From IMG/VR virus record IMGVR_UViG_3300032053_000073, positions 1 to 61,172 of that record: a stretch of DNA of 61,172 nt, one strand, 5' to 3'. This DNA is from a virus. Positions 2 through 48,867 of the stretch are shown here, piece after piece. The notes beneath the pieces were generated by a model. That model ran no database searches. It was not told the origin of the DNA and saw nothing but the letters and a program-made list of their open reading frames with translations. Both the position numbers and the translations under genes were made by a program. Positions within the stretch are counted from its first letter, which is position 1, and each line of letters starts with the position of its first letter.

Positions 2-520
2 ATGTCTGGAGTTGCAGGAGGTGATTTATCTGGACTTTTTCCTAATCCCTCCGTTTCTAAAGTAAATAATGTGTCTGTTTCAGGAACCCCTATTGCGGGA
101 CAGGTAATTACAGCGTTAAGCGGGACAGCCTCAAGTTGGCAGACACCTGGCACAGGTTCTTCTACGGCAAATAAAGGCACTTATCAATGTGATGTAAGCG
201 TTAATCTTCATGATGTTGTTTATCTTAAAGCATCTGATGGTTATGTCTATTCCGCAGACGCAGATGATATATCAAAACAGCCTGTTATTGGTATAGTATC
301 ATTAAAACCAACTGCAACAACTGCTGAAGTGACTTATTCCGGTGAAGTGTCTGGATTTTCCGGATTATCACTATCAAGCACATATTATTTATCGATTACT
401 CCGGGGCAAATATCAACATCAACCCCGATAACAACCGGTTCAATTATTCAACATATAGGGTTTGCTAAATCAAGCACAGTTTTAGTTGTAATGATTGATC
501 GTGATTTCGTCATGTTATAA
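2..520 (+). CDS. Tail fibre-like protein, 5'-truncated by window edge
   Basis: The readable part is 172 residues and ends at a TAA stop. It opens with a GDLSG.FPNP.V motif that is typical of long phage tail fibres. In the three large paralogues further right this motif lies about 100 residues into the protein, so the ATG at position 2 is probably internal and the true start lies outside the window. The C-terminal part (about residues 60-170) resembles the C-terminal domain of the fibre at 869-2917, with alternating hydrophobic and Ser/Thr/Gly residues expected of beta-rich trimeric fibres. It carries one DGY tripeptide. The precise role (fibre shaft or tip) is inference. Confidence 0.65.
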   Translation: MSGVAGGDLSGLFPNPSVSKVNNVSVSGTPIAGQVITALSGTASSWQTPGTGSSTANKGTYQCDVSVNLHDVVYLKASDGYVYSADADDISKQPVIGIVSLKPTATTAEVTYSGEVSGFSGLSLSSTYYLSITPGQISTSTPITTGSIIQHIGFAKSSTVLVVMIDRDFVML

Positions 521-590
521 GTCAATAATTAGGTAATATATTAAGTTGGTTAATTTCGCCTCATATAACCAAGGGGCAATTGGAGATAAA

Positions 591-812
591 ATGGCTAGAT
601 TCAAATATATGGGTGAGATGAATAGGAATGCTGTCGTAAGCTATGGCCCAACAAAAACCATAAATGTTCCGCTGAAGAATGGGACGCACCTGGTAATAAA
701 TGCAGCCGATCAAACAGCTGGATTTACACTGAACACAGATATTGGTGTTGAAATAACCGATTCAAGAGCGTTAACATGTCTTCGCGCAGATACTAGGTTT
801 CAAGAAATTTAA
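591..812 (+). CDS. Small protein between fibre genes, unknown function
   Basis: This encodes 73 residues beginning MARFKYMGEM. An upstream TTG at 546 would extend it to 88 residues, but the ATG at 591 has a GGAG Shine-Dalgarno element about 6 bases upstream, so I prefer the shorter form. The protein is a compact alpha/beta-looking chain with no cysteine pair, signal peptide or membrane segment. The final residues (RADTRFQEI) suggest a head- or tail-associated structural peptide only by context. I do not recognise the family. It sits between two fibre genes on the same strand and is probably co-transcribed with them. Confidence 0.6.
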   Translation: MARFKYMGEMNRNAVVSYGPTKTINVPLKNGTHLVINAADQTAGFTLNTDIGVEITDSRALTCLRADTRFQEI

Positions 813-868
813 GTTTAAAGCAGTATAAAGTTTTAGTTTAACAATTTAATTGACAAAAGGATATAATA

Positions 869-2917
869 ATGACTTCTTATCGTTCACTTACAATACAATC
901 TGGTGTTGTCAAACAAGTTCAAAATGGTGATACACTCACAGTTGGAGCTGGTGTTGACACGGCTTCAGGCGATTTAACCTTAACCCCGACAGGAACTAAC
1001 GTAACTGTTGCTTCTGGTAAAGTTCTTTTATCTGGAGGTGGAACCGGAGCCCTTAATTTCGGTACTGCGTCTGGTGTATTTACAACATCAACAGGCACAA
1101 ACACACTTAGTGGTGACGTTTCTGTTGCGGCAGGTAAAAATATATCTGCAGCATCAGGCGCAGGTAATTTCGATTGGTCACTTTCAACTGGTACATTCAA
1201 AACAAGCACTGGGGCGGTCACAGTCGGCGGAGCAGCATCATTTACCGCAGCAGGCACGGCATTAGCGGTAACAAATAATGCAACTATAAGCGGAACCCTT
1301 ACCACCGGATTAATTGATAATAGCGCCGGCACATTAATAATTGGCGCAAATACAACTGCAACAACAATCGGTAAATCTGGAACAACCACCACAATCGCAG
1401 GTGATTTAAGTGTTTCCGGTGCACAAACCGTAGTTGGGACAACAACTTTTGCAAACCCAGTTACATTCGACGGTTATGTTATCGTTGGTGATGGTGTTGG
1501 CGGACCAGATTATTTCTCTCTAGATACATCAACTGGTTATTTAGGTTCATCGGCTCGTCCAGATATGCGATGGGCACCAGAAATGGCTCACCAATTCTAC
1601 GTAGCTGGCTCAACCACTACAAACGCTGCTGGCGGAGCGCTTACAGTAGCTGGTGGTCTTGGCAATGGCACAGCGGCAGGTGGCGTTCTTGCTGTTGCAG
1701 GCGGCCAAGGCGGGGCAACTGGGGCTGGCGGAAATCTAACCCTAACAGCTGGTGCAGGTGGTGCAACAAGCGGCAATGGCGGCAATTTAGTTCTAGCGGC
1801 AGGCGGCGTTACTTCAGGCACAACCGGTACAATGTCAGTCGGCGCAACAAATACCTCGGCAATCGGTATCGGCGCTAGCGGAATTACAACCACCGTAACC
1901 GGCAACCTAACACAAGTAACAGGTGCAGTGAGCTTAAGTGGTAACGCAGCTTCATCACTAACCACATCAGCCGGCGCACTTACATTAACTAGCGCAGCGG
2001 CGGCAACATGGTCAACAGCGGCAGGAGTACTTTCAGTAAATGGTTTTGCGGGAATTAACTTACAAAAGGGCGGATCAACTCTACTCGATGTTGGTGTTAC
2101 TTCAGCCACGGCATTAACAGTATCGGCTGGTACAAACGTTACTGCAGCGTCAGGGTCCACGATATTTAATTTTGGTTCTGCCACTGGTGCATTTACAACC
2201 TCAACAGGTACAAACACACTTAGCGGCGATGTTACTGTTGCAGCTGGTAAAAACCTATCTGCAGCAGCTGGGGCGGGCAATCTAGATTGGTCAGCTTCAA
2301 CTGGTACATTTAGAACCTCATCAGGTGACGGCTACCTAAACGGGAATACAGTGGTTGCAACCGGTAAGACACTGTCAACAACCGGCACAGGCATGATTGA
2401 TCTCCCTTCTCTATTCAAGATCAATACATCTGCTGTCAGCGCAAATGTTACAGCTACAAACCTAAATACCTTAACAGCTGGGGCGGCTTCTAACGCTGAC
2501 GCACTGCACACTCACTCAGGGGTAGTAGCAAGTAACCTTTTAATCTCAGGCTTAACCGCAACTGGTTTTGCTGAGGGCGACATTGGTTATGCAAGCGCCA
2601 ACAACGTGCTTACAAAAGCCATTGCAACATCACTAGCGGCAGCAAGCTTCCTTGGCGTTGCTCCTTCTGGCAATCCAACAACCTCAACATACGTCAGCGG
2701 TTCGGCAAATGTTAGGTTTGAAGGGAGCTTAACACTTGCAGCAGGGGATCGTGTTTATATCTCGGCCTCAACAGCTGGATGGGCAACAAACGTAGCTCCA
2801 TCAACTGCAGGTCAAGTAGTTGCATGTATTGGTATAGTTCTTGATACAACTGGTTATACAACTGCCGGAACAAAGGCCCACGTAGTTCTCTTCCCACAAG
2901 CACCAGTAGTTCTATAA
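869..2917 (+). CDS. Low-complexity tail fibre protein
   Basis: This 682-residue protein is dominated by Gly, Ala, Ser and Thr in short alternating patterns, as in beta-helical or collagen-like shafts of phage fibres. A roughly 39-residue block (TNTLSGDVSVAAGK and following) occurs twice, about 371 residues apart. A Gly/Ala-rich stretch lies near residues 250-320. The last 150 residues look like a folded tip domain and resemble the end of the truncated fibre at the window start. The start has an AAAGG ribosome-binding site. Its codon and base composition is more GC-rich than most neighbours, owing to the GGC/GCA repeats. A terminator-like hairpin follows. A role in host adsorption is inferred from composition and neighbourhood. 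Confidence 0.75.
   Translation: MTSYRSLTIQSGVVKQVQNGDTLTVGAGVDTASGDLTLTPTGTNVTVASGKVLLSGGGTGALNFGTASGVFTTSTGTNTLSGDVSVAAGKNISAASGAGNFDWSLSTGTFKTSTGAVTVGGAASFTAAGTALAVTNNATISGTLTTGLIDNSAGTLIIGANTTATTIGKSGTTTTIAGDLSVSGAQTVVGTTTFANPVTFDGYVIVGDGVGGPDYFSLDTSTGYLGSSARPDMRWAPEMAHQFYVAGSTTTNAAGGALTVAGGLGNGTAAGGVLAVAGGQGGATGAGGNLTLTAGAGGATSGNGGNLVLAAGGVTSGTTGTMSVGATNTSAIGIGASGITTTVTGNLTQVTGAVSLSGNAASSLTTSAGALTLTSAAAATWSTAAGVLSVNGFAGINLQKGGSTLLDVGVTSATALTVSAGTNVTAASGSTIFNFGSATGAFTTSTGTNTLSGDVTVAAGKNLSAAAGAGNLDWSASTGTFRTSSGDGYLNGNTVVATGKTLSTTGTGMIDLPSLFKINTSAVSANVTATNLNTLTAGAASNADALHTHSGVVASNLLISGLTATGFAEGDIGYASANNVLTKAIATSLAAASFLGVAPSGNPTTSTYVSGSANVRFEGSLTLAAGDRVYISASTAGWATNVAPSTAGQVVACIGIVLDTTGYTTAGTKAHVVLFPQAPVVL
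1091..1207 (+). repeat. Internal duplication in fibre gene, copy 1 (copy 2 at 2204-2320)
   Basis: The stretch 1091-1207 recurs at 2204-2320 (offset 1113 bases, in frame) with synonymous and conservative changes. Both encode the TNTLSGDV..AAGKN block followed by a DWS.STGTF segment. The substitution pattern, mostly at third positions, shows the repeat is kept at protein level and is not a recent DNA duplication. Confidence 0.75.
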
Positions 2918-2954
2918 TAATTAGTAACAATCAGTAAAAAGAAGTGATATATAA

Positions 2955-2988
2955 AGAGGCGAGACAGAAATGTTTCGTCTCTTTTTTA
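2955..2988 (+). terminator. Rho-independent terminator after fibre gene
   Basis: An 11-base stem (AGAGGCGAGAC paired with GTTTCGTCTCT, including G-T wobbles) with a 6-base loop is followed directly by TTTTTT. It lies 38 bases after the fibre stop codon and before the ribosome-binding site of the next gene, so it separates the fibre gene from the small coiled-coil gene. Confidence 0.75.
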
Positions 2989-3011
2989 TTTAATACAGGA
3001 GCAATACCAAA

Positions 3012-3341
3012 ATGGCAAAGAAAACCAAGAATCACGTTTCAGATGCAGCCTTAACAAAGCCTGACGTAATTGCATTAAATCAAGACCAGGTAGAAAAACT
3101 TCGTGAGCTTGAGCAGGCAGTTCTTAAATATAAGCTTCAATTGGCAGATTTAGAAATGAGTATTAGTGATATTGCATTAAAGAAGAATTTGTTAATGGGT
3201 ACGGTTACATCAGAAACATCAAAAATGATGGAGTATATTAAGGAAGTTGCCAGGACATATGATATCGATCCTGATGGCGACTCCTCTTCTGAGCAATGGC
3301 ATTTAAACACTTCAAATATGGTGTTTTCGCGCATTAAGTAG
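3012..3341 (+). CDS. Small coiled-coil protein, unknown function
   Basis: This 109-residue protein has heptad-like spacing from about residue 25 to 80 (LRELEQAVLKYKLQLADLEM), giving a predicted coiled coil or helical hairpin. A short acidic C-terminal region (DPDGDSSSEQWHLN) follows. The start has an AGGAG ribosome-binding site about 10 bases upstream. Small helical proteins of this kind are common among large-phage virion or chaperone genes, but I do not recognise a specific family. It lies between a terminator and the first large fibre paralogue. Confidence 0.6.
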   Translation: MAKKTKNHVSDAALTKPDVIALNQDQVEKLRELEQAVLKYKLQLADLEMSISDIALKKNLLMGTVTSETSKMMEYIKEVARTYDIDPDGDSSSEQWHLNTSNMVFSRIK

Positions 3342-3464
3342 GCCCGTCAACATATTTTGTATCTAATTTAATTATATTGTTAATACCGTTAAATTAACAT
3401 CAATATAGATGTGTATTTTTCTTTGTGGCCGGCTGACATCGTAATAAATAGAAATTCTTAATAT

Positions 3465-6173
3465 ATGGCAACCTACAATAATATAGTTGTGTTCAAATCA
3501 TCAACCGGTACGATGGCAGCATCACAGACGGGAGATACTCAACAAATTGGGCAAAATCTATATTTAACAGGTGTGACCATATCTCTAAAGCTTGACGGCT
3601 ACATAGTTATGAATATGATGTCTGCCCCTCCCGTTTCTACGGCAGGAACTGGCCGTATATATTTTGATCAAAGCACTCTAAAATTCAAAGTATCAGAAAG
3701 TGGCGGGGCATATGCAAATTTAATATCTGCTAATGCGTTTGGTCCGGCCGGAGGCGATTTATCCGGAACATACCCTGGCCCAACAGTCATAAAAGTAAAT
3801 GGTACGTCTGTTCCAGCATCCCCAGCCGCTAATACAATATTGGTTGCTACATCTGGAACAACAACTACATGGGCTCAGGTTGTTGATGGATATATTTCGG
3901 CATCTGCGGCTATTTCTGGAAGCAAAATAAACCCTCTATTTGGCACGCAGACGTTAACGGCCGGAACATCTAACTTAGGCACGTCAACGTCTGCAAGTTC
4001 GATTGCAGGGTCATTAACGCTCACTACGAAGACGTTTGCAGGTAGCGGTACAATTGATGCTACAACAAAAGATTTGATTATTTATGCGGACACTTCTGCA
4101 GGGGCTATTTCATTAACTTTGCCGGCTCCAACAAGCGGAAGATTTTTGATAATTAAAGATAAAAAGCAAACGTTTAACACAAATAATTTAACTTTAATTA
4201 GAAATGGTTCAGAAAAGATTGATGGTTATGCTGGGTCCGTAGTTTACGACAAAGTAAATCATAATTTAATGATTACTAGTGATGGGACAGATTGGTATAC
4301 AAATGATTCAAATAATTTGCCAAGTGGAACGGCAGGTGGAGATTTAGCTGGAACGTATGCATTTCCAACTGTTAATACAATAACTGGGACTGGCGGGGTA
4401 ATTCCGGTTTCTGCAAATACTATAAGGTGGGCAGTAAATTCGTCGCCCTCTATACTTCAAGTTAATCAAACTGCGGCATCAACGAATGGGCAACCATTAA
4501 CAATTCAGGCTCAAAATGCAACGGGGGCAACTTCAACAGGCGGAAATTTAATTATTACAGCTGACGTTGGGACTGTATTAAACAACGAAGTTGATGTTCA
4601 AACTGGTTCAACTCTTGCATTTCGACAAGGCCCCAATATTAGTTTTTTCTCCCAAGTTTTATCAAGCGGAGGCAGATCAGGATCAACTACAACCGCTTAT
4701 TTATGTTCCGGTATAGAAAATACTATAGGTATGTCTGAAACTGCCGATTCTTTATTTGGATATTATTATAGTCCTGGTGGATCGGCCGGGTCTTATTTTG
4801 GATGGTGGTTATTTCAAGGTTTCGGATCATCTTTACATTCAATATATGGGATATCTGCTGGTAGAGCCTCAACTTCCACTGGCCTAGCAAAGCTGGGCCC
4901 AGGTTTGTTTTGGATAGCAAGAGGATATCATTTCGGAGGTAATTTTGTTGGATTAAGTATAAAGAACCACCATTATCCAAGCGCAACAGCAGCAAATTCG
5001 GATTATCACATTAGAGGTTTATATAAAATTACGGGAGATAGGGTGACGCTCACTGACAACGGGCTTTCCGGCGCCAATAGACATTTTGAGAAAACGGTGG
5101 TTGCAGATGGATATGACGGTGTATTATGGGCATCCTCTACCCAATACGTAACTGGAGGGATATATGGTAATGCACAAGGAGTGCAAACAACCCTTGCTAC
5201 AGGAATTATTCCAACCACAAATAATTCAGGAAGAAAGTTTTTTCAAGCACAAACTACGGCAAATTCTGGTACAGTTCAGCCAAATTGGGATGGATATCAA
5301 ACATTGGGAGCCACATTAGTTGACGGGGGGGTGACGTGGGAAAATACTGGATCTGCATGTACTTATGCCCATATGAACAAAATACAAGGGAATATCAAAA
5401 ATGGTACAACTTCCGGAACAATTGCGTGGGCCCTATCTGATGAGTTTATAGTTGCTACAAATATTACTGCCAGTAATGCCATTTCATTTTTTGCATGCAA
5501 TGGCCCGGATTATCAAAATTATCATACTATAAAAGATGGTTATGGTATTTTTTCACACGGCGTAGGACTGGCAATTAATAGCGCAGCCACACCAAATGTA
5601 CCCATGGATGGAGATGGATATACTTATAATTTTAGGCACGATTATGGTTCAATATCCATTCAGCATACAGGTAATAGTAAATGGCTTATTGTTAATGATG
5701 CCAAAATATATGGAATATCAAGTAGTTCTAATGATTTTGCATCAACTGGCAGCAGGTTAGATTTAGCTTCACAAGAAATAGTATTAGGGTCTAGCACTAC
5801 ATATCCTGTTAGAACATTTTCAACATCAGTTCAAACATCTGGTGCCACATTTACCACTATTGCTAGCTATACAATTCCAACAAATTCAATAGCGGATTGG
5901 CAAATAACAATAACCGGATGGAATGTAAATGGCGGGACTCCAAACGGTGATTATTTCAGATGCAATTTATCATTTCAATCGTATAGGCTATCGGGTACTC
6001 CAACATTAAACCCTGCTTCTCCATCGGCAATAAACACTATTACAAATGGGGGAGGATCCTCATATACTGTTCAGGTAATATTAACAACCAATTTAATGTC
6101 AATACAAGTTAAAGGAGTTGCCGCCACGTCTGTAAATTGGGCTTGTATTGGACAATATCAAAAGGCTTCCTGA
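3465..6173 (+). CDS. Large tail fibre, paralogue A
   Basis: This 902-residue protein is the first of three tandem paralogues. From the N terminus it has a conserved NNIVVF/IGQNLYLTG domain (1-90), a GGDLSGTYPGPTV fibre repeat (about 95-115), a TKDLIIYADTS..LTLPAP beta domain (about 195-280), and a second GGDLAGTY repeat. A divergent central region (about 380-560) follows, then a conserved PNWDGYQTLG region. The C-terminal domain ends NWACIGQYQKAS. The divergent centre between conserved flanks is what one expects of a receptor-binding or surface-exposed part. Seven DGY tripeptides are present. No clear Shine-Dalgarno lies before the ATG. The fibre role is from motif knowledge; receptor specificity is unknown. 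Confidence 0.8.
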   Translation: MATYNNIVVFKSSTGTMAASQTGDTQQIGQNLYLTGVTISLKLDGYIVMNMMSAPPVSTAGTGRIYFDQSTLKFKVSESGGAYANLISANAFGPAGGDLSGTYPGPTVIKVNGTSVPASPAANTILVATSGTTTTWAQVVDGYISASAAISGSKINPLFGTQTLTAGTSNLGTSTSASSIAGSLTLTTKTFAGSGTIDATTKDLIIYADTSAGAISLTLPAPTSGRFLIIKDKKQTFNTNNLTLIRNGSEKIDGYAGSVVYDKVNHNLMITSDGTDWYTNDSNNLPSGTAGGDLAGTYAFPTVNTITGTGGVIPVSANTIRWAVNSSPSILQVNQTAASTNGQPLTIQAQNATGATSTGGNLIITADVGTVLNNEVDVQTGSTLAFRQGPNISFFSQVLSSGGRSGSTTTAYLCSGIENTIGMSETADSLFGYYYSPGGSAGSYFGWWLFQGFGSSLHSIYGISAGRASTSTGLAKLGPGLFWIARGYHFGGNFVGLSIKNHHYPSATAANSDYHIRGLYKITGDRVTLTDNGLSGANRHFEKTVVADGYDGVLWASSTQYVTGGIYGNAQGVQTTLATGIIPTTNNSGRKFFQAQTTANSGTVQPNWDGYQTLGATLVDGGVTWENTGSACTYAHMNKIQGNIKNGTTSGTIAWALSDEFIVATNITASNAISFFACNGPDYQNYHTIKDGYGIFSHGVGLAINSAATPNVPMDGDGYTYNFRHDYGSISIQHTGNSKWLIVNDAKIYGISSSSNDFASTGSRLDLASQEIVLGSSTTYPVRTFSTSVQTSGATFTTIASYTIPTNSIADWQITITGWNVNGGTPNGDYFRCNLSFQSYRLSGTPTLNPASPSAINTITNGGGSSYTVQVILTTNLMSIQVKGVAATSVNWACIGQYQKAS

Positions 6174-6231
6174 TAACATATAATCTATTGATATATATTG
6201 TTTTGCAGGTTTATTACTTTTGAACCTCATC

Positions 6232-6256
6232 GCATAAAATAACATTTAATATAAAT
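6232..6256 (+). promoter_or_regulatory. Conserved 25-bp element upstream of fibre paralogue B
   Basis: A 25-base AT-rich sequence containing CATTTAATATAAAT is identical here and at 9010-9034, each time 35-75 bases before the start of a large fibre gene. It is followed here by a 7-bp inverted repeat (GCGTTAA at 6257-6263 with TTAACGC at 6274-6280). It resembles a phage late promoter of the TATAAAT type and could be read by the phage sigma factor encoded at 31895-32542, but this is inference. Confidence 0.45.
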
Positions 6257-6307
6257 GCGTTAAATAAAGCGGCTTAACGCTATGAAAAATTAAGATAACG
6301 AGTTCAC

Positions 6308-8974
6308 ATGGCAACCACCTGGATAAATAAAATAATTGTGTTTAATGAGGCTGCCGGGACTCATACAGTTGCGCATGCCGATGACACTCAGCAAATAGGC
6401 CAAAATTTATATTTAACCGGAACTAGCACAACGGCTACATTAGATGGTTATTTTATAATAAATGGAATAACTGTCCCTGCTTTAGCGCCAGCATCATCTG
6501 GACGTATTTATTTTGATAGCACGGGTAATGTATTTAAAGCATCAGAAAATGGCGGCGTATATTTTAATTTAATTGGAGCTAGTGGTCCGGCCGGAGGAGA
6601 TCTTTCTGGTACATACCCTAATCCAACCGTTGCTAAAATAAATGGAGTCTCTGTTCCGGCAACTCCATCTGCAAATCAAATATTATTCGCCACTTCTGGT
6701 ACGGTTGCAACATGGGGTCAAATAACAGATGGCAACGTATCCGTAACCGCTGCAATTTCTGGAAGCAAAATATCGCCTAATTTTGGAACGCAAACATTAA
6801 CTGCTGGTGGATCTGCATTTGGAACTACTACAACAGTTAGTTCAATTGTGGGGTCATTAAAATTTACAACGAAAACATTTTCAGGTCCTTCTGATGGTTA
6901 TATAGATACTGGTACAAAAGATTTAATTATTTATGCTGATACATCTGGCTCGGCTTTTCGATTAATATTGCCGATTCCAACAAATGGCCGAACAATAATA
7001 GTAAAAGATAAAAAACAGTCATTTGCCGCTAATAACTTAACATTAACAAGAAATAGTGCCGAAAAGATTGATGGATATGCCGGGAACTTAGTTTTAAGTA
7101 TTAATAATAAAAATTTAGTTATTACCAGCGACGGAACTGATTGGTATACAAATAATTCCGGTTATAAGTTTACTGATGTTATGGGTGGAACAGACTTAAC
7201 TGGCTCATTTGCAACTCCAACAATTATAAATCTATCTGGTAATGCCAGCGGAATTGTAACTCATCGCACAAATAATCTTCAGTTTAATATTGGGGTTGTT
7301 GCACCTACAATAACACAGGGGGATAATACAGCTGCATCTGCAACTGCTCAAAATTTAATAATTAAGAGCCAAAGGACGGTAAATGTAGGTACTACTGGCG
7401 GAAATTTTTCATTAAAATCCGGCACTGGGACTTCCGGCGCAGGATCAGTATTATTTCAAATTAACGGAATTACTAAATTTCAAAACTCTACCGCTTTTTG
7501 TTCCTCGTCTTCGGCACATACCGGTGGATTTAACATATATTCTTTTTTACAATCCGACGCTAACGGTTTATGGGGTATGCAAAATGATGATGATGGAGGT
7601 GGCTCCAATTATTTTTCTCATAGATATTCTCCATCCCCTGCAACATCAACTGACAGATTTGGTTATTACGGATATTTTACATTCCAATATACACCAAATA
7701 CAACTGATAAAATAGCTTATGCAGTTGCAGCAGGCAGAGCTTTTGAAGGGTCTTGTGCCTTTTGGCTTCCTAGAGGATATTTATTTGGCGTAGGCACAGG
7801 AAAACACTATGTATTTCCCGGCCGCAATGTAGCCCAATATTCTAAAATAAAAAAAGGATATAGAACAATAGGTGATCGTGTAACAATATCAGATCTTGCT
7901 ACGGCAAATGGATATTATGAGAAAATAGTTACAGCTGATGGCTATGACGGGTCGGAATGGCAAGCAAGCGCATCCGAATATTTGGAAGCATCTACTGGTA
8001 ATTTTGCATTTGTAATTTTACCAATAATAAATAATTCTAGCAATCACGCTTTTCAAGTATTATCAAACCCAACAAGCGGGCTTAGTGGGGCTGTACGTCC
8101 AAACTGGGACGGATATCAAACATTAGGAAATACGCTTGTTGATGGTTATGTTACTTGGCAAAATGTTGGAACTGCATGTACATACACTAAAGCAAATAAA
8201 ATACAGGGCAATATAACGTCAGTAACTACCACATATACCGTTCTCAGTTCTGATGAGATTGTAAATATAACAAATATTACGGCCCCATTTACTATTTCGT
8301 TACCATCATCTCCAATATTAGGCCAAACACATACAATAAAAGATGGCTATGGAGGATGTTTCACAAATAATATTACTATAGACGGTTATCTTAGTGGTGC
8401 CGGTAAAACAATTGATGGTGTTAATACAATTTTAATGAATCAAGATTGGAGTTCCATTACTGTTTATTATAACGGAACACAATGGAATGTTATTAAAGAC
8501 GCAAAAACTCATGGTATTACGGCTTCCACTAATGATTTTTCTGCCACTGGAACTCGTTTAGATATTGTACCAAAAGAATTAGTTCTTGGTGCAAATACAT
8601 TAGTCCCGCTTCGAAATTTTGTAAGTTCGGCACAGACAACTAGCGCATCTTTCGTGACAATTGCAAGCTATACTATTCCAACAAATTCATTGGCCGATTG
8701 GTCATTTACGGTTTTGGGATGGAACGTAACCGGTGGAACTCCTGATGGTTATTATTACAGAGCAGATTTCGTTTTTAAATCTTCACGATTAACTGGAGCG
8801 CCAACATTAACACCATCATCACCAACAGCAACAAACGTTGTATCTAATGGCGGAGGATCGGCGTATAGTGCCCAAGTAATATTATCAACAAATTTAATGT
8901 CAGTACAAGTAAGTGGCGCCGCTGCAAAAACTATAAATTGGTCGTGTATTGGCAAATATCAAAAAGTTTCGTAA
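6308..8974 (+). CDS. Large tail fibre, paralogue B
   Basis: This 888-residue paralogue follows the fibre at 3465-6173 after a 134-base gap. Domain order is the same: N-terminal IGQNLYLTG domain, GGDLSGTYPNPTV repeat, TKDLIIYADTS beta domain, divergent centre (about 390-540), PNWDGYQTLG region, a SLPSSP/TIKDGYG beta domain, and a C terminus ending NWSCIGKYQKVS. It carries nine DGY tripeptides, two of them at sites where the paralogues have other residues (LVDGYVTW; PSDGYIDTG). The start is preceded by ATAACGAG, a sequence shared with the next fibre gene but not a canonical Shine-Dalgarno. It probably contributes an alternative or additional receptor-binding fibre. Confidence 0.8.
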   Translation: MATTWINKIIVFNEAAGTHTVAHADDTQQIGQNLYLTGTSTTATLDGYFIINGITVPALAPASSGRIYFDSTGNVFKASENGGVYFNLIGASGPAGGDLSGTYPNPTVAKINGVSVPATPSANQILFATSGTVATWGQITDGNVSVTAAISGSKISPNFGTQTLTAGGSAFGTTTTVSSIVGSLKFTTKTFSGPSDGYIDTGTKDLIIYADTSGSAFRLILPIPTNGRTIIVKDKKQSFAANNLTLTRNSAEKIDGYAGNLVLSINNKNLVITSDGTDWYTNNSGYKFTDVMGGTDLTGSFATPTIINLSGNASGIVTHRTNNLQFNIGVVAPTITQGDNTAASATAQNLIIKSQRTVNVGTTGGNFSLKSGTGTSGAGSVLFQINGITKFQNSTAFCSSSSAHTGGFNIYSFLQSDANGLWGMQNDDDGGGSNYFSHRYSPSPATSTDRFGYYGYFTFQYTPNTTDKIAYAVAAGRAFEGSCAFWLPRGYLFGVGTGKHYVFPGRNVAQYSKIKKGYRTIGDRVTISDLATANGYYEKIVTADGYDGSEWQASASEYLEASTGNFAFVILPIINNSSNHAFQVLSNPTSGLSGAVRPNWDGYQTLGNTLVDGYVTWQNVGTACTYTKANKIQGNITSVTTTYTVLSSDEIVNITNITAPFTISLPSSPILGQTHTIKDGYGGCFTNNITIDGYLSGAGKTIDGVNTILMNQDWSSITVYYNGTQWNVIKDAKTHGITASTNDFSATGTRLDIVPKELVLGANTLVPLRNFVSSAQTTSASFVTIASYTIPTNSLADWSFTVLGWNVTGGTPDGYYYRADFVFKSSRLTGAPTLTPSSPTATNVVSNGGGSAYSAQVILSTNLMSVQVSGAAAKTINWSCIGKYQKVS

Positions 8975-9009
8975 ATTATCCGATATATCCTGTTTAGGAG
9001 CACAGGCTT

Positions 9010-9034
9010 GCATAAAATAACATTTAATATAAAT
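9010..9034 (+). promoter_or_regulatory. Conserved 25-bp element upstream of fibre paralogue C
   Basis: This is identical over 25 bases to the element at 6232-6256. It is followed by a different inverted repeat (ATCAAT at 9033-9038 with ATTGAT at 9051-9056), so the position of a hairpin is kept while its sequence is not. A partial match (AAAAT.ACATTTAAT) also precedes the gene starting at 14763. A late promoter or processing site is the likeliest role. Confidence 0.45.
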
Positions 9035-9069
9035 CAATAAAAGCTTTTGAATTGATATAACGAGACTAC

Positions 9070-12000
9070 ATGGCAAATACTTGGGTAAATAATATAGTCG
9101 TTCTTGGATCATCCGGAGCATTTACGGTTCCTCGCAACAACGATACTATCCAAATAGGACAAAACTTATATGTGGTAGGATCCGATAAAACAATAAAATT
9201 AGACGGGTTTCTTACCATTAATGCTAGATCGGCCCCTCCAGTATCATTATCTAATACTGGAACGATATATTTTGATACTGGAACAAATAGACTTTTAGCA
9301 TCTGAAAGCGGGGCTACATTCGCAAACATAATTGGTGCGTCTGGAGCGGCATCAGGAGATCTTTCTGGTACATATTCTACCCCAACGGTAAGTAAAATTA
9401 ATTCTACCTCTGTTGCGGCTTCTCCCTCTGCAAATCAAGCTTTGGCAGCCACATCATCAACAACATCGGCATGGTCTCAAATAACCGATGGATATGTATT
9501 ATCTTCCACTGTAATTGCTGGCAGTAAAATAAATCCTGCTTTTAGCCCCCAATCATTAACCGCAGGAACATTTGCCTTAGGGCTTACATCATCCGCTAAT
9601 TCTATAGATGGTTATGTAAATCTAAATACAAAAACATTTACTACTACTGGCACAATTGATACAACAACAAAAGATTTAATAGTTTATGCCGATACTACTA
9701 CAGTTGGATTTACGCTTACATTGCCGGCGCCTGTTAATGGTAGAATTATTATTATAAAAGATAAAAAACAATTATTTTCAACTAAAAATTTAACAATTGC
9801 AAGAGCCGGTGCTGAAAAAATTGATGGCGTTGCGGCGTCATTGGTATTAAGTAAAAATAATAAAACTTTAATTATTACAAGTGACGGAACTGATTGGTAT
9901 ACTAACGATTATACATCATCGCTTGCCGGTGCTGGAGGCGGCGATTTAGGCGGCACTTATCCAAATCCTACTGTTGTTGGATTAACTGGCACGGGTAATA
10001 TAGTTACTACTAGTGCCGCAACAATACGTTTTAATAATAATGTTGTGGCACCTACGATTAATCAGATTGATCGTAATGTCGGCGATGCAGTTTCAAATGG
10101 ACCTACTTTTATTATTCAAGCACAAAATGCTACCGGCACCACCTCAGTTGGCGGCAATTTAATATTAAAATCTGGTACCGGAACATCGACTCATGGCAAT
10201 ATACAGCTGAAGCATGTTGGGTTTAACGGCACTACAATTACTCAAAACACCGTGTTTGCTTCTGTAACAAGCTCAACCTCAGCTCCAGGAGTGTTGTTAT
10301 ATGGCTATTTGAAATATAATGTTAATAGCGCTTGGGCACTAGCTACATCGCACGATTCATTTGCCAATTCATTGACATATTTTCCAGTTGGCGATACAAA
10401 TGCCCCTGGTTGGTGGACATCTATATATGCAGATTCATTTTCTTATTGCGCTTACGCTGTTTCCGGTGCACAAGCTGTAGAAGGAGCGGGGATTATGTGG
10501 TATCCGAGAGGATATGGAATGACAATAGTAAATAATGGCACACAATATGCCCCATATACTTTTCCGAATCTAATTTCTGCAAAATCAAGCCAAATTAGAA
10601 GCGGATATCGTTTTACAGCAGATAGGGTAACATTAGCAAATACCGCGGCTCCAAATGCATATTATGAAAAAGTAATAACATCTGATGGTTATGATGGAAA
10701 TGCATGGGTCGCAACTACAACATATATTGGCGCAAATCCGGCAGCTGGTTTTGCAGATACAATTATTCCAACATCAAATAATGCCGGTTCTAGAGCTTTC
10801 GAATGTCTGGTTGGAGGAACAACGGGCAGCTCTCAACCAAATTGGGACGGATACCAAACTACCGGAAATACTCTTGTTGATGGAACCGTGACGTGGAAAA
10901 ATGTAGGTGCTTCTGCTACCTATAACATGATGAATAAAATACAGGGTAATACAACGCCAATAACAACGACATATACAGTATTATCGACTGATGAATTAGT
11001 TCTTATTACAAATATAACTGCACCATTTACTATATCATTACCAACAAATCCAACCGCTAAAGATTATTATACAATTAAAGACGGATATGGGTGCTCAACA
11101 AATAATATTACTATAGATGGTTATCAGGGTGGTACCGGTAAATTAATTGATGGGGCCAATACAATTTTATTTAATCAAGATTTTAGCGCGGTCACAGTTT
11201 ATTATAATGGCACACAATGGAATGTCACGAGTCAAGTAAAAACAGAGGGACTTACTTCTGCAGACAATGATTTCGCTTCAGGAACTCGCCTAGATGCTGT
11301 TCCATCTGAAATAGTTTTAGCATCAACATCATCACTCACATCTGTTCCATTTAGACAATTTACTACTTATGCTCAAACAACAAGCGCAACATATGTGACA
11401 ATTGCTAGCTATACAATTCCAACAAACTCTATGGCTGATTGGAATTTAAGTCTCGCCGGTTGGAACGTAAATGGCGGCACTCCTAATGGTGATGGATATA
11501 GGGCCGATATAAAATTTCAATCTTCACGATTAACTGGGGCACCTACATTATATCCTGCATCTCCATTGGGTACAAATGTAAGTTCAAGTGGAGGCGGCTC
11601 AGCATATAGCACGCGAATTACATTATCAACAAATTTAATGTTAGTTGAAGTTAGTGGCGCGGCAGCAACGACAGTAAATTGGTCGTGTATTGGTAAATGC
11701 ATAATCATTGGCAATACCGTGGCGGTTGCGACAGTATCTTCAGTGTCATCAGCGGGAACGTCTACACAGTGGGATAATGCTCAAACACTAACAATAACTG
11801 GTACTAATTTTGTTTCAGGGTCTATTGTATCAATTGGTGGATCCGCAATGTCAACAACATTTGTATCATCAACCAGCCTTACATGTACAGCTACAGCGAC
11901 AGTGTATCAAACAAGCGGCACTAAATCAATCACCGTGGACGCATCATCGGCATATACGGGATATTCGGTTACTGCATGGACTATAACTGATCTTCCAGGG

Positions 12001-12648
12001 ATTACGGGGCGTTGGCGAGCTGATCTTGGCATCACTTTAACAAGCGGAAAAGTCTCTGACTGGGCTAATCAAGGCTCTGGTGGTGGATCTGTAACAGACG
12101 GCGGATTTTCTACAAGGCGTCCTACCCCAACAACACGGAATGGTAAGGACGTATTGCAGTTTCACCTTAATTTCTTAATTGGCGGAGTTGTGTGGTCAAG
12201 CATTATCTCGGCAGCTACGTATTACGCATTTGTCACATTAGAATCTACCGATACCACTACCACTACAGGCGCCTCATTTTCAAATCCAGCAGTAATGGGA
12301 TCTTCGTATGTTTCATGGGAAATTACAAAAGATGTGGTACGAACTGTCAATTATGATGGTACTACAGATACATCTCCTAACGTTACATTTACGCCAAACG
12401 CTCGACATCTAGTTGCATATCAGCATACTGGTGGCAATGTGGCATGTGGATTAGATGGGTCTACGCCTACTACAACGGCCAGCGGAGATACGGCGAACAG
12501 AACAGAAGCTGCGCGTATAGGGTGTAATTACAATAATGGATTCTTTTTTGATGGATATATTAGAGAGATTGTAATATCCACAAGCTCTATTACTGCCAAC
12601 GAAATAACGCGTGTAACTAATTACATGACTGCAGATTTCGTAACGTAA
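9070..12648 (+). CDS. Large tail fibre, paralogue C, with extra TIG and lectin-like domains
   Basis: This 1192-residue protein follows the same plan as the two previous fibres up to about residue 874 (NWSCIGK), where its siblings stop. It then continues for about 318 residues. An IPT/TIG-type Ig-like domain (about 880-975, with LTITGTNFVSGSIVSIGG) is followed by a concanavalin A/laminin-G-like domain (about 980-1192, with GRWRADLGI, SGKVSDWANQGSGG and a final FFDGYIREIVI..SSITANEI). Such C-terminal domains commonly bind glycans or cell-surface structures. The junction looks like a gene fusion or domain acquisition. Eight DGY tripeptides are present. Adhesive function is inferred from family knowledge. 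Confidence 0.8.
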   Translation: MANTWVNNIVVLGSSGAFTVPRNNDTIQIGQNLYVVGSDKTIKLDGFLTINARSAPPVSLSNTGTIYFDTGTNRLLASESGATFANIIGASGAASGDLSGTYSTPTVSKINSTSVAASPSANQALAATSSTTSAWSQITDGYVLSSTVIAGSKINPAFSPQSLTAGTFALGLTSSANSIDGYVNLNTKTFTTTGTIDTTTKDLIVYADTTTVGFTLTLPAPVNGRIIIIKDKKQLFSTKNLTIARAGAEKIDGVAASLVLSKNNKTLIITSDGTDWYTNDYTSSLAGAGGGDLGGTYPNPTVVGLTGTGNIVTTSAATIRFNNNVVAPTINQIDRNVGDAVSNGPTFIIQAQNATGTTSVGGNLILKSGTGTSTHGNIQLKHVGFNGTTITQNTVFASVTSSTSAPGVLLYGYLKYNVNSAWALATSHDSFANSLTYFPVGDTNAPGWWTSIYADSFSYCAYAVSGAQAVEGAGIMWYPRGYGMTIVNNGTQYAPYTFPNLISAKSSQIRSGYRFTADRVTLANTAAPNAYYEKVITSDGYDGNAWVATTTYIGANPAAGFADTIIPTSNNAGSRAFECLVGGTTGSSQPNWDGYQTTGNTLVDGTVTWKNVGASATYNMMNKIQGNTTPITTTYTVLSTDELVLITNITAPFTISLPTNPTAKDYYTIKDGYGCSTNNITIDGYQGGTGKLIDGANTILFNQDFSAVTVYYNGTQWNVTSQVKTEGLTSADNDFASGTRLDAVPSEIVLASTSSLTSVPFRQFTTYAQTTSATYVTIASYTIPTNSMADWNLSLAGWNVNGGTPNGDGYRADIKFQSSRLTGAPTLYPASPLGTNVSSSGGGSAYSTRITLSTNLMLVEVSGAAATTVNWSCIGKCIIIGNTVAVATVSSVSSAGTSTQWDNAQTLTITGTNFVSGSIVSIGGSAMSTTFVSSTSLTCTATATVYQTSGTKSITVDASSAYTGYSVTAWTITDLPGITGRWRADLGITLTSGKVSDWANQGSGGGSVTDGGFSTRRPTPTTRNGKDVLQFHLNFLIGGVVWSSIISAATYYAFVTLESTDTTTTTGASFSNPAVMGSSYVSWEITKDVVRTVNYDGTTDTSPNVTFTPNARHLVAYQHTGGNVACGLDGSTPTTTASGDTANRTEAARIGCNYNNGFFFDGYIREIVISTSSITANEITRVTNYMTADFVT

Positions 12649-12733
12649 AGCACAATTAATTCAATTGACAGCACTACTAACATTTTAGCATATATAATGT
12701 AATTTCATAATATTTTTTTAAGGCCCAGCAAAT

Positions 12734-14719
12734 ATGGCAAAATATCCTGCCCAGCTTGATACTACAATATCCCTTCCAACAGTTAATGATAATTCTACTG
12801 CGATAAAGGGAATTACAGTAAATAGACTCAGGGATGCAATTTTAGCTATTGAAACAGAGCTTGGGATTAAGCCCTCTGGAACATATGGAAATGTTAGATC
12901 AAGAATAGATAATTTAGAGATTTTTGCTAATACAACTGGCAATGTAGTTTTCTCTCATGATTTATCTGGAACATCATCAAATCAAACGGTAGTTGGGCTA
13001 CGTGGGAATCCAATTTCAGTTACTCCTCCAGCAATTGGACAATCAATAATTTGGAACGGAACTAACTGGGCGCCAAGCACTAATTTTATTGATCAAAATA
13101 TTATAACTACAGGATCTATTCTTGGAGGTTTTACCAGTTTTTCTTCTGTCGATACCACACTATTTACATTAACAGGAAAAATGGTAGTAGATAGTATTCC
13201 TACAACATCATTTACTTCTGATTTAAATCAAGGTATAATTTATTTTGATTCAGTTGCCCATAAGTTCAGGGTATCTGAAAACGGCGGGGCTTATGTCGAT
13301 TTAGTTACAACGGCGCCAGGTGGAGGCCCTTCTGGAACGGCGGGTGGCGATTTAGGCGGCAGCTACCCCAACCCAGATGTCATTAAACTGCGTGGTAAAT
13401 CAATATCGGCCGCTGCCCCATCCGCAGGCCAAACGCTAATCTGGGACGGTTATGCGTGGACTCCAAATACAAATTTCATGTTCCAAAATATTGCCACTTC
13501 TGGAAATATAATATCTAATTCTTCATTTACGACAATGTTAGATGCTTCATTAATATTATTATCTGGAAAATTGGTAATGGACGGTATTACGGCACCAATT
13601 ATTTCTGACCCAAATGAAGGTATAATTTATTTTGATCAAGCCACAAATCATTTCTTGGCATCTGAAAATGGCGGAGCATACGGGGCAATTGGCGCTGGCG
13701 GTAATTACGGATCAACAAACATAACAACAACCGGATCATCGTCTGCAAACTCTTTAATATCTAATGGTACCATAGTTGTTAATGAGATATCTACGCCAGC
13801 TGTTTCCGCTATAAATCAAGGTATTATTTATTTTGATAATATTGCAAATAAATTTAAAGTGTCTGAAAATAGCGGGGCATATATAGATTTAGTTGCGGCG
13901 GTTGGTGCTGCCGGTGGAGATTTAACCGGATCATATCCAAATCCAACTGTAGTTAAATTACGAGGTCGCGATATAGCTACTGATACCCCTACAGTTGATC
14001 AGTTTTTAGGATATACTGGTTCAGCATGGAAGCCTTTAAATATAAATTCTGATCAAATTGCGCAGACATTAGTGTTTTCAGTGATACCAGATGAGAGTTT
14101 AGTTGAAGTTGGGGTTATATTAAACCGGCCAATATTTACCGGCATATATAATCAAAACATTTCTGCATCTCAGTTATCTGATAGCGTTGGAGGTACTCCT
14201 GTAGATGTAAAAGCAGGATATACAGTATTAAGTTCGCCTGTGTTTCCGGCATCAGCTCCATTTACTAATAGATTTTATATGGACGAATCCTACACATATA
14301 GTACTTATGGATCTAGTGTAACATTTTCATTAACATCTACAGCCGTTTCAACAATAGCCATTCCAAGTCCAGCTACAAAGGTAACAGCTACAACTGTAAC
14401 ATGGGCACAAAAAATGTTTTATGGTATTGGGGCAGCCGGCGGTAATTCAGAGGCATTTATTGAGGCGCTTTCAAACAGCTTTCTTACCACATCACGAACA
14501 ACTCATTTCGAGGTTAATCCAGGCGTCTCTCAATATATTTATGTTGCTTTCAGGTCTGCTTATGGCCCGGCCACTTTCTTTGTTGATGGCTTTGAGGGTG
14601 GATTTGCATTAGTATCAAGCACTATTTCAGTGACTAATCAATATGGATTTACTGAAAACTACACTCTTTATGTAAGTGATAACGATAATTTAGGTTTATC
14701 GCACGTTTCAGTCTTTTAA
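12734..14719 (+). CDS. Tail fibre protein with NRLRDAI-type N-terminal domain
   Basis: This is a 661-residue protein. Residues 1-65 (YPAQLDTTISLPTVNDN..., VNRLRDAILAIETELG, SGTYGNVRSRIDNLE) match a widespread N-terminal module of very long phage fibres. Three degenerate repeats of about 130 residues follow, each with GIIYFD and VSENGGAY motifs plus GGDLGGSYPNPDV or GGDLTGSYPNPTV elements. The same units occur once each in the large paralogues. The last 190 residues form a separate beta-rich tip. It starts at an ATG with AAGG upstream. It is probably the final large component of the fibre module. Confidence 0.75.
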   Translation: MAKYPAQLDTTISLPTVNDNSTAIKGITVNRLRDAILAIETELGIKPSGTYGNVRSRIDNLEIFANTTGNVVFSHDLSGTSSNQTVVGLRGNPISVTPPAIGQSIIWNGTNWAPSTNFIDQNIITTGSILGGFTSFSSVDTTLFTLTGKMVVDSIPTTSFTSDLNQGIIYFDSVAHKFRVSENGGAYVDLVTTAPGGGPSGTAGGDLGGSYPNPDVIKLRGKSISAAAPSAGQTLIWDGYAWTPNTNFMFQNIATSGNIISNSSFTTMLDASLILLSGKLVMDGITAPIISDPNEGIIYFDQATNHFLASENGGAYGAIGAGGNYGSTNITTTGSSSANSLISNGTIVVNEISTPAVSAINQGIIYFDNIANKFKVSENSGAYIDLVAAVGAAGGDLTGSYPNPTVVKLRGRDIATDTPTVDQFLGYTGSAWKPLNINSDQIAQTLVFSVIPDESLVEVGVILNRPIFTGIYNQNISASQLSDSVGGTPVDVKAGYTVLSSPVFPASAPFTNRFYMDESYTYSTYGSSVTFSLTSTAVSTIAIPSPATKVTATTVTWAQKMFYGIGAAGGNSEAFIEALSNSFLTTSRTTHFEVNPGVSQYIYVAFRSAYGPATFFVDGFEGGFALVSSTISVTNQYGFTENYTLYVSDNDNLGLSHVSVF

Positions 14720-14762
14720 TGTTATCTAAACTAAAAAACAACTAACAAAATGACATTTAATC

Positions 14763-15296
14763 ATGCCGACTAATGTAATATCTATAATTAAGCCTAAGAA
14801 TAATGGGACTTTTCCGACCCATGAAGATACAGATGGATACGGCGGATTTCAAGTTAGAAATGACGCAACAGACAGAAACTCTATACCGTCCGGTCGTAGA
14901 AAACAAGGGATGTTGGTATATCTTAATTCTGACGGTTATTTCTATCAATTAGCAGCAGATTTAAATACATGGAATCTGGCTAATTTTGGAGTTTCTGGCG
15001 GTGGGCCTACAATACCAAATACAAGATCAATTACCGGGGCAACGACTATAGTAAATGCTTCTGATGATATGATTTTTATTACAACAATATCAGCTCCATT
15101 TACAATAACACTTCCTGCGACCCCAACTGCCGGACATGTATTTACAATAAAAGACGCATCTGGAACGGCTTCTTTAAATGCTGTTACACTAGCGGGTAAT
15201 GGGCATACGATAGACGGATCTTCAACATTCCCAATAAACCAAAATTATGAATCTATTAATATTGTTTATAACGGAACTAGTTGGAGCATTATCTAA
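14763..15296 (+). CDS. Short fibre or tip protein sharing a domain with the large fibres
   Basis: This 177-residue protein has an N-terminal domain with RRKQGMLVYLNSDGYFYQL, a pattern often seen in fibre or tip proteins that report a surface-exposed strand pair. The C-terminal half (about 85-177) contains APFTITLPATPTAGHVFTIK, then TIDGSSTFPINQ and a final YNGTSWSII. That half is homologous to the late beta domain of paralogues B and C. It therefore shows what that domain looks like without the DGY substitutions. The stop codon overlaps the 3' end of the opposing gene at 15289-15672 by 8 bases, so transcription converges here. Confidence 0.7.
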   Translation: MPTNVISIIKPKNNGTFPTHEDTDGYGGFQVRNDATDRNSIPSGRRKQGMLVYLNSDGYFYQLAADLNTWNLANFGVSGGGPTIPNTRSITGATTIVNASDDMIFITTISAPFTITLPATPTAGHVFTIKDASGTASLNAVTLAGNGHTIDGSSTFPINQNYESINIVYNGTSWSII

Positions 15297-16225: not shown

Positions 16226-16924
16226 TCAAGTGATTGTGGGCCGCCAACGCTTAACATAAGATTTGCACATAATATCAAAAGCAGAATCGCCAAAATCATT
16301 TAATGCAAGATTAACTATTAAACATACAATCCTTATATTATTTTTAGTATATCCGGCATTACAATTTATACGATCTATTGATGGCGCAAAAGCCCTTTTC
16401 GTATTACCAAATTTAGTTAAATTAAAATATATGCCAGTTAAAGCGCATTTGCCATTTTGTTCATTGTATAAGTCTATTAAAAATGGTAAGTCTATATCAC
16501 AATCAATTTTTAATTTTTTAGAACGACTGTTTGCATTTTTTCTGAGAACCCCAAGAAACTTTACATAACATTTTTCAATTGGTATTGCATCAAACATAGC
16601 TTCCGTTTTCTTATATCTTTTTGTATTATTTTCGCTATGCCTCTTAAGATGTGAAATATATTCTGACTGATTTGGATTATTTTTTAATTTTATGATTTTA
16701 TTACGACTTGCATTGCTTTTACATATCTTGCAGCGCGGTGAAAATTTGTCAAACTCAACTTCCAATTTAAAAATATGACAATTTGTACATGTCCTATCTC
16801 CAGAATACCTTTGTTTATAGCTGTATTTTTCACAAGATCGGCAAACGTTTCTATTTTCTCTAAAATTTTTTGTTATTTTAACTGAAGTACATACGGTGCA
16901 TTGCTTACTATTAGTTATAATCAT
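16226..16924 (-). CDS. HNH homing endonuclease with N-terminal zinc fingers
   Basis: This 232-residue protein has three CxxC pairs in its first 70 residues (CTVC, CRSC, CTNC, CKIC), forming small zinc-binding modules. A C-terminal HNH-type nuclease domain follows (CALTGIYFN, then APSIDRINCNAGYTKNNI, with Asp and Asn in the place of classical HNH residues). This is the layout of free-standing phage HNH endonucleases that nick DNA near their own insertion site. Its ATG overlaps the TGA stop of the glycosyltransferase gene (ATGA), so it is translationally coupled to it. It probably spreads by homing between related phages. Confidence 0.8.
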   Translation of the reverse strand: MIITNSKQCTVCTSVKITKNFRENRNVCRSCEKYSYKQRYSGDRTCTNCHIFKLEVEFDKFSPRCKICKSNASRNKIIKLKNNPNQSEYISHLKRHSENNTKRYKKTEAMFDAIPIEKCYVKFLGVLRKNANSRSKKLKIDCDIDLPFLIDLYNEQNGKCALTGIYFNLTKFGNTKRAFAPSIDRINCNAGYTKNNIRIVCLIVNLALNDFGDSAFDIMCKSYVKRWRPTIT

Positions 16925-21814: not shown

Positions 21815-22303
21815 TTAATCTTCCCATTTAATAATTAAATTATATCCTGCGTTTATTATTAACTTTTCACGCGCCAATGTTTTATTATGTAATTCTTTAT
21901 ACGTTGTTTTTGTCATTGGATTAATATCATTTGGATTAAAGCTTTTTGGACAACCATGCCAAAACTTACCATGAAACTCATAAACTGTATTTATTTCTGG
22001 AACATAAGCATCAGCCTTTATATATTTTTTACCAATCTTTATTTTTGCTTGTCTATATTTTTGATCTATATTTAATGAGTCAAGCCATATAGTTTCTGGT
22101 TTAGAAATAATATGGGTGCATTTTGGACAACCTTGACCTTTCAGATGATGATTTGGAGTTTGTTCAAAATCACCATGAATAAGGCACGTTATCGTTACCT
22201 TGGTTTTGTTATTTATATAAATAATTTTTCCGTAACTACATTTATTTAATGGATGAACAGCGTTTGCTTTTTGTATGAAGATGTTTGCTTTAACTGCTTC
22301 CAT
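21815..22303 (-). CDS. Vsr-like endonuclease with one zinc-ribbon repeat
   Basis: In this 162-residue protein, residues 1-60 form one copy of the repeat KVTITCLIHGDFEQTPNHHL followed by GCPKC, a four-cysteine ribbon. Residues 65-160 form a nuclease domain with ETIWLDSLNI, YEFHGKFWHGCP and a final LIIKWED. That pattern resembles Vsr-type nicking endonucleases and the EDxHD homing enzymes. It is the shortest member of a family with copies at 33737, 47760, 49672 and 60111. Its ATG overlaps the TAA of the gene at 22303-22479 (TAATG). It is probably a mobile endonuclease. Confidence 0.75.
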   Translation of the reverse strand: MEAVKANIFIQKANAVHPLNKCSYGKIIYINNKTKVTITCLIHGDFEQTPNHHLKGQGCPKCTHIISKPETIWLDSLNIDQKYRQAKIKIGKKYIKADAYVPEINTVYEFHGKFWHGCPKSFNPNDINPMTKTTYKELHNKTLAREKLIINAGYNLIIKWED

Positions 22304-31811: not shown

Positions 31812-31894
31812 AAAAATCTCCATTTCCCTTATTAAAACTATACCTTGCGCTAATTAAATTATAATTAAAGTCTATTGTTTACAGCAATTTATTT

Positions 31895-45065: not shown

Positions 45066-45160
45066 AAATAACGCCTCCAAAGATTAACATATATCCATAT
45101 CCTGATATTGTTAATGCATATCTTTCAAGTTAAATTAATTAAAAATCCAAGGCAAAATAC

Positions 45161-48830: not shown

Positions 48831-48867
48831 ATCTGATTGTTATATAGCATGTAGAGATATTATTAAA

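Follow-up and report, generated by a model that had tools for sequence, protein, structure and literature searches.

A strict Asp-Gly-Tyr motif enriched in the virion proteins of a jumbo-phage lineage, and its possible role as a glycosylation sequon

Introduction

Why should one tripeptide, Asp-Gly-Tyr (DGY), recur so often in the tail fibres of a phage? The question is raised by a 61-kb virus record of a large phage (IMG/VR record IMGVR_UViG_3300032053_000073, analysed over its 61,172 nucleotides and called the window below), whose left end encodes a module of fibre-type proteins. An earlier note, made from the sequence alone, had counted 30 DGY in seven of these proteins where about one would be expected. 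It ascribed them to selection on the peptide with repeated, independent gain, and hesitated as to the cause between a tight turn with an exposed aromatic residue and a site for modification or ligand contact. Here we describe the distribution of the motif in the window, in the jumbo-phage lineage to which the window belongs and in smaller phages, together with the glycosyltransferase and sugar genes that accompany it.

Results

DGY in the fibre module of the window

The left module (window 2-15296, plus strand) contains nine open reading frames (ORFs) of at least 80 amino acids (aa), seven of which bear DGY.

2-520, plus strand: fibre-type ORF, 172 aa, possibly truncated at the contig start, with a GGDLSG-type domain in common with the large fibres; DGY at 236
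869-2917, plus strand: fibre-type ORF, 682 aa; DGY at 1469 and 2327
3465-6173, plus strand: large fibre paralogue, 902 aa; DGY at 3594, 3885, 4221, 5106, 5289, 5535 and 5613
6308-8974, plus strand: large fibre paralogue, 888 aa, with a PHROG 972 tail fibre match at 638-735; DGY at 6443, 6893, 7070, 7937, 8108, 8141, 8342, 8381 and 8744
9070-12648, plus strand: large fibre paralogue, 1192 aa; DGY at 9487, 9607, 10684, 10846, 11080, 11116, 11491 and 12550
12734-14719, plus strand: fibre-type ORF, 661 aa; DGY at 13445
14763-15296, plus strand: fibre-type ORF, 177 aa; DGY at 14832 and 14931

A recount in frame gave 1, 2, 7, 9, 8, 1 and 2 DGY per protein, 30 in total and identical to the earlier count, while the other two ORFs of the module (546-812, 88 aa; 3012-3341, 109 aa) contain none. 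Residue frequencies predict 0.93. Shuffling the residues (n=2,000) gave a mean of 0.9 with a maximum of 7, and shuffling the codons inside each ORF (n=5,000) a mean of 0.90 with a maximum of 5, so that chance and composition were rejected as causes. No tripeptide of the module is more over-represented than DGY, which accounts for 30 of its 53 DGx and 30 of its 47 xGY tripeptides. The rest of the window holds 2 DGY in 13,692 aa, against 2.04 expected.

The codons at the 30 sites (Asp: GAT 21, GAC 9; Gly: GGT 14, GGA 12, GGC 4, GGG 0; Tyr: TAT 26, TAC 4) closely match the usage of the module, apart from the absence of GGG, which indicates that selection acts on the peptide, as the earlier note had supposed. 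A cause at the nucleotide level was rejected on the same ground, the degenerate positions of the motif being third codon positions.

The two flanking large paralogues are 50 and 54% identical to the middle one. Counted on their alignment, the 24 DGY sites of the three proteins fall into 14 homologous positions, of which 3 are common to all three, 4 to two, and 7 occur in a single paralogue. Repeated gain is thus borne out, and the contrasts from which it was first proposed (LVDGYVTW against LVDGGVTW and LVDGTVTW; PSDGYIDTG against GSGTIDAT) are real. In relatives, too, DGY does not occupy the same columns: in an alignment of 19 homologues of the fibre domain encoded at 8078-8527, KDGYG was confined to the three window paralogues, the others having KDANG, KDTTG and similar sequences. 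Two homologues (L198, L210) have DGY elsewhere in the domain, at an IDG turn, and two (L048, L176) upstream of it. The model of this domain has a predicted local distance difference test score (pLDDT) of 73 overall and 86-94 in the folded part, where both DGY sites are predicted to lie at a strand end, at a strand-loop junction. Foldseek matched it to a tailspike of phage CBA120, TSP4, and with less strength to gp10 and gp9 of T4, that is to fibre attachment domains; we do not claim DGY as part of the TSP4-like fold, the homologues of the domain being mostly without it.

The excess extends to the virion proteins of a jumbo-phage lineage

A search with the DnaB-like helicase of the window found 11 contigs whose DnaB is close to it (40-100% identity); they include records of 359, 301, 210 and 130 kb. 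The lineage as analysed consists of the window and 11 other records; G014, G049, G053 and G065 joined it later, via DnaB. G049 and G053 are of about 300 kb each, and G006, G009 and G065, of 41, 85 and 120 kb, are fragmentary. A distant DnaB search yielded nothing intermediate that could serve as an outgroup: outside the lineage, matches were of only about 20-30% identity. Neither the large fibre 6308-8974 nor the glycosyltransferase of the window described below had a match among the isolated phages of INPHARED. The DnaB of a 24-kb contig, L011 (IMGVR_UViG_3300031707_000172), is 100% identical to that of the window, and this contig therefore probably comes from the phage of the window itself or from a very near relative of it.

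ORFs were called in pieces of at most 20 kb, cut at the piece ends and left unjoined, overlaps being resolved longest first. The fraction of Asp-Gly (DG) dipeptides followed by Tyr (DGY/DG) was 0.14-0.29 in all 12 lineage records, 2.9-4.6 times the first-order expectation, against 0.03-0.12 and 0.7-3.5 times in ten control phages. In G005, G007, G008, G010 and G014 the excess is confined to blocks of virion-type genes, and 10-kb bins outside these blocks are mostly at or below the expected number. Block members include a baseplate wedge protein (PHROG 6, Pfam Baseplate_J) and the tail sheath (PHROG 279); many others have no family match and are called virion proteins by position only. The enrichment is thus a property of virion proteins that other proteins of the phages do not show, and the excess is neither restricted to fibres nor a local gain of one fibre module, as had first been thought.

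The DGY-bearing proteins span sheath, baseplate, Kelch, fibre and capsid-like types, of very different folds. Two G065 proteins of 3,245 and 5,319 aa hold 26 and 38 DGY, and tandem DGY runs occur in baseplate-type proteins. In a Kelch-type beta-propeller of a jumbo phage (L055 9016-10266; G005 69016-70266), DGY precedes strands of the IYMFGG type.

Two observations stand apart. A DGY-rich tail protein (L074 1051-3999; G008 81051-83999) and its orthologues contain a match to Dockerin type I; calcium loops of the dockerin or EF-hand kind (as DxDGDGY) were discarded as an explanation, DGY following DG, NG, DN or NN in just 12 of 604 sites. A different DGY-rich array, with a five-residue period (41 and 48 copies), is present in L273 and L295, which gave no BLAST match to the lineage.

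Each position of the motif is strict

Near variants of the motif were counted in 47 tail proteins picked by orthology, from clusters with at least 3 DGY in total and hence partly selected for the motif. DGY reached 17.0 times its expectation there, while substitution of the last residue (DGF 1.1 times, DGW 0 copies, DGH 0.9 times), of the first (NGY 1.3, EGY 0.2) or of the second (DAY 0.6, DSY 0.8, DNY 0.5) abolished the excess; only DGT was mildly raised (2.4 times). In 55 proteins selected for at least 2 DGY the values were 20.7 times for DGY and 1.7 times for DGT, and DGF, DGW, NGY and EGY were again unenriched. Positions flanking the motif show mild preferences only. Each motif position therefore has a strict residue requirement. 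A tight turn with an exposed aromatic residue should tolerate Phe, Trp or Asn, so this cause is weakened, even though modelled sites lie at strand-loop junctions; of the two causes first offered, a site for modification or ligand contact is the one supported. As phenylalanine does not replace tyrosine, the tyrosine is the likely acceptor if the motif is modified.

Sites are gained and lost

Site turnover was followed in 8 of 15 orthologue clusters from G005, G006, G008, G009, G010 and G014, with G004 and G007 left out of the turnover and retention sets as near-copies of G005. Among 64 groups of DGY sites, 25 are found in one genome only and 2 in all members. Where DGY is lost, orthologues carry DGT, NGQ, AGT, DNV or gaps. 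Lost sites that are not gapped number 125, added up over eight genome pairs so that one site may count more than once; they include 32 that keep none of the three residues, 22 that keep DG only, 10 GY only and 6 Asp and Tyr. Between the closer relatives G008, G009 and G010, DGY was retained at 0.73-0.87, against 0.52-0.56 for other Tyr. Sites are held for a while yet are replaceable, which fits a requirement for dose and not for a fixed position.

Glycosyltransferase and sugar genes accompany the motif

Two glycosyltransferases were considered as candidate enzymes. The first adjoins the fibre module.

16921-17892, minus strand: GT-B-fold glycosyltransferase, 323 aa

It scores 26.1 bits with Pfam PF13528 (cut-off 25), and its relatives range from 15.8 to 33 bits (five relatives, with one giving no match). 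Its AlphaFold2 model (pLDDT 91.9) has a predicted GT-B fold and matches UDP-glycosyltransferases (UGTs) over the whole chain, with Z up to 21.5 (Foldseek/VIA); identity to solved UGTs is only about 10%. Homologues are present in 6 of the 11 other lineage records. All 35 IMG/VR contigs that carry this type of gene contain GAYGGNTAY, usually far more often on one strand than the backwards control, although the two shortest contigs, of 6 and 13 kb, are uninformative, as are a few more. Conversely, an IMG/VR scan for three GATGGNTAY within short gaps returned at least 80 loci, many of them low-complexity or out of frame; at least 7 of the contigs are also among the 35 carriers. Fifty of these loci, 40 with in-frame DGY clusters and 10 without, were searched for the window glycosyltransferase. 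The DGY-rich G049 and G053 show no match to it, so that it cannot be the only writer of a modification, and this idea was dropped.

The second candidate is a GT4-type gene found in all 11 other lineage records (G005 301125-302270, for example). Its profile was built from nine of them, with G004 and G006 outside it. The Pfam family Glycos_transf_1 is matched in G005 (31.5 bits, cut-off 26.4), in G065 (39.9) and over two stretches in G049 and G053. A scan gave 65 loci of this gene, near-identical contigs included. Of the 63 with at least 10 DG, 61 have DGY/DG of at least 0.12. Upstream sequence of 6 kb or more is available at 57 loci, and at all 57 a same-strand ORF with at least 2 DGY lies upstream, within 1.5 kb in 48. 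In fold and family, both candidates agree with known GT-B glycosyltransferases (UGT-like GT1 and GT4).

GT2-type genes come next in most lineage records, together with a dTDP-glucose-dehydratase-like gene. G005 encodes a GDP-mannose 4,6-dehydratase (443.4 bits, NCBIfam cut-off 415) and a GDP-fucose-synthase-like protein that falls below its cut-off; both have homologues in G008, G009, G049, G053 and G065, and the dehydratase also in G010. These two genes lie in a sugar cassette (L058 5101-16665; G005 125-137 kb) together with a DegT aminotransferase, O-acetyltransferase-like and acyl-CoA-ligase-like genes and several glycosyltransferases.

Small phages with the same excess

Three small phages of 31-41 kb (G012, G013, G052) have a fibre domain in common with the lineage but few other genes, and their packaging and replication genes are different. 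They hold 10, 10 and 23 DGY against 1.7, 1.9 and 3.0 expected; in G052 the sites lie in ORFs resembling capsid, sheath-like and baseplate proteins, as judged by position and by likeness to G012. G012 encodes a formyltransferase, a GT9-like gene and two homologues of genes of the G005 sugar cassette, and G052 a 101-aa piece 80% identical to the G005 dehydratase; no sugar gene of this sort was seen among the ORFs read in G013. Three other phages, which have only a distant copy of the fibre domain (G015, G016, G018), are not DGY-rich (0.7-1.5 times), and the window-type glycosyltransferase found no match in them. As to the host, a single scan of genome contigs matched only a contig of a Bacteroidia metagenome-assembled genome, too weakly to name a host, and the IS200 transposase of G052 gave no help.

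Other features of the window

Further genes typical of large phages are a ribonucleotide reductase and an IMP dehydrogenase, each with an intein (28374-31823 and 42867-45080, both minus strand; at least one with a homing endonuclease domain), PhoH, the DnaB-like helicase and many homing endonucleases. Profiles of the terminase large subunit and of primase match the middle of the PhoH-like ORF (24920-27277, minus strand; residues about 290-650), and the terminase ORF of G052 (12311-14791) resembles this same ORF. Related inteins thus probably occupy these two unrelated genes. The load of HNH and GIY-YIG homing-endonuclease-like ORFs is very high; several belong to one repeated KTKDTKQFIKEA-type family, and some were assigned by sequence inspection.

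Homing-endonuclease-like ORFs, first five: 16226-16924, 20218-21000, 21815-22303, 33737-35686, 38635-39972
Homing-endonuclease-like ORFs, remaining five: 46026-46820, 47760-48830, 48796-49653, 49752-50561, 60111-61172

An FAD-dependent oxidoreductase of the HI0933/GidA type (19004-20218, minus strand) is kept through most of the lineage, and a repeat protein made of KHREDGPA-type units is encoded at 53675-54151 (minus strand).

Discussion

We consider it very likely that DGY is a recognised motif of some kind. It is strict, limited to virion-type proteins, freely gained and lost, multivalent, and it travels with sugar-attaching enzymes, which is the profile of a glycosylation sequon; whether virion glycosylation is indeed its meaning we regard as evenly balanced. 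Under this proposal, DGY would be a short linear acceptor motif in the virion proteins of the jumbo-phage lineage. A phage glycosyltransferase produced from the late operon of these proteins would be the writer. The likeliest candidate is the GT4-type enzyme, whose gene comes directly after the DGY-rich baseplate and tail genes, perhaps helped by the UGT-like enzyme of the window (16921-17892). It would recognise Asp-Gly-Tyr in exposed loops and add a sugar, most simply on the tyrosine hydroxyl, from a donor that may be supplied or altered by the products of the GDP-mannose dehydratase, GDP-fucose-synthase-like and dTDP-glucose-dehydratase-like genes. If the number of tags mattered and their position little, sites would be gained and lost while density was kept, and capsid, sheath, baseplate and fibres would end up coated with sugar.

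Several observations weigh against glycosylation by these enzymes. The window-type glycosyltransferase was not found in 5 of the 11 other lineage records (G006, G009, G049, G053, G065), and the GT4 gene is not within the window fragment itself. Nor was the GT4 family found in the DGY-rich small records G012, G013 and G052, and no glycosyltransferase was seen among the ORFs read in the 37-kb record of G013. One control, 023Pt_psg01, a marine phage that shares a fibre domain, reached 3.5 times its expectation (7 against 2.0), and in the deeper genome pairs DGY had no advantage over other Tyr in retention. A GT4 gene could stay beside a DGY-rich tail gene through nothing more than gene order and common descent. 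Glycosyltransferases are, besides, common in large phages, and PMC12619734 reports four core glycosyltransferase groups for a presumably different jumbo lineage, the 'moraphages'. It is because gene order and ancestry confound the link, and because one DGY-rich small phage showed no such enzyme, that we only infer glycosylation. The complete scheme, a self-made, cytoplasmic, sequon-based tyrosine glycosylation that coats the whole virion and was acquired by unrelated small phages through exchange of fibre and sugar genes, is accordingly offered as a tentative and somewhat doubtful one.

The same small phages suggest another explanation, namely that an enzyme of the bacterial host recognises DGY and that unrelated phages of this host (the jumbo lineage, G012, G013 and G052) converged on the motif. 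That three phages with different packaging and replication genes have the same excess would agree with this, as would the fibre domain common to them and the lineage, which suggests overlapping hosts, and the lack of a glycosyltransferase among the ORFs read in G013. We think it unlikely, however: no bacterial proteome with such an excess was found or tested, and the jumbo lineage has its own glycosyltransferases in the tail operon.

It is quite unlikely, in our view, that DGY is a docking motif bound by a common partner, for example a chaperone of assembly, or a decoration protein coating both tail and capsid. Docking motifs typically are strict, multivalent and repeatedly gained, as DGY is, and its tandem runs would raise avidity. 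But the proteins that carry the sites, from sheath, baseplate and Kelch to fibre and capsid-like ones, differ greatly in fold, and a conserved partner was not identified.

A structural preference, in which DGY would be a favoured beta-turn and strand start fixed by descent in beta-rich virion proteins, is consistent with the strand-loop position of the modelled fibre-domain sites and with the mild enrichment of DGT. The flat counts of DGF, DGW, NGY and EGY, and the lack of excess in beta-rich virion proteins of other phages, including the fibre-domain holders G015, G016 and G018, make it very unlikely.

Highly improbable, finally, is some other modification of tyrosine or aspartate (sulfation, phosphorylation, hydroxylation or cross-linking) by a further enzyme: it would explain the same strictness and turnover, and the conserved FAD-dependent enzyme (window 19004-20218) has homologues in 8 of the 9 lineage records compared, but what was seen linked to the tail operon were glycosyltransferases, and neither a sulfotransferase nor a kinase.

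If glycosylation is the meaning of DGY, two known systems invite comparison. The O-glycosylation of Bacteroidetes uses the sequon D-S/T-x (D-S/T-hydrophobic). The likeness lies in a short motif with an acidic residue near the acceptor and in multiple sites per surface protein; in contrast, DGY has no Ser or Thr, its acceptor would be Tyr and its enzyme would act in the cytoplasm during assembly. DGY is not a motif of this type, Gly following Asp and DSY being unenriched. In mycobacteriophages, phage-encoded virion glycosylation was reportedly described by Freeman et al. in 2023, with glycans at the C-termini of capsid and tail-tube subunits. Glycans on phage structural proteins, as may exist here, are the point in common, whereas the present lineage has a tripeptide scattered over many structural proteins and not a terminal site. 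Virion glycosylation in phages is already known (work on mycobacteriophages cited in PMC12619734). A literature search, judged on titles and the beginnings of abstracts, found no description of a DGY motif in phages or tail fibres, and a tripeptide sequon spread over the virion of a jumbo-phage lineage would be a novel form of such glycosylation. We know of no phage with a readable code for the modification sites of its own particle.

If the proposal is true, DGY would be such a code, and virion glycosylation in uncultured jumbo phages could be predicted from their sequences. It would also provide a tool, in the form of a small tyrosine glycosyltransferase that acts in the cytoplasm and is directed by a tripeptide. 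With capsid, tail and fibres coated in sugar, host recognition and the encounter with bacterial surface defences could both be affected. Even without a sugar, a strict motif enriched about 20-fold across a lineage, with turnover of its sites, strongly points to a new recognition event on virions.

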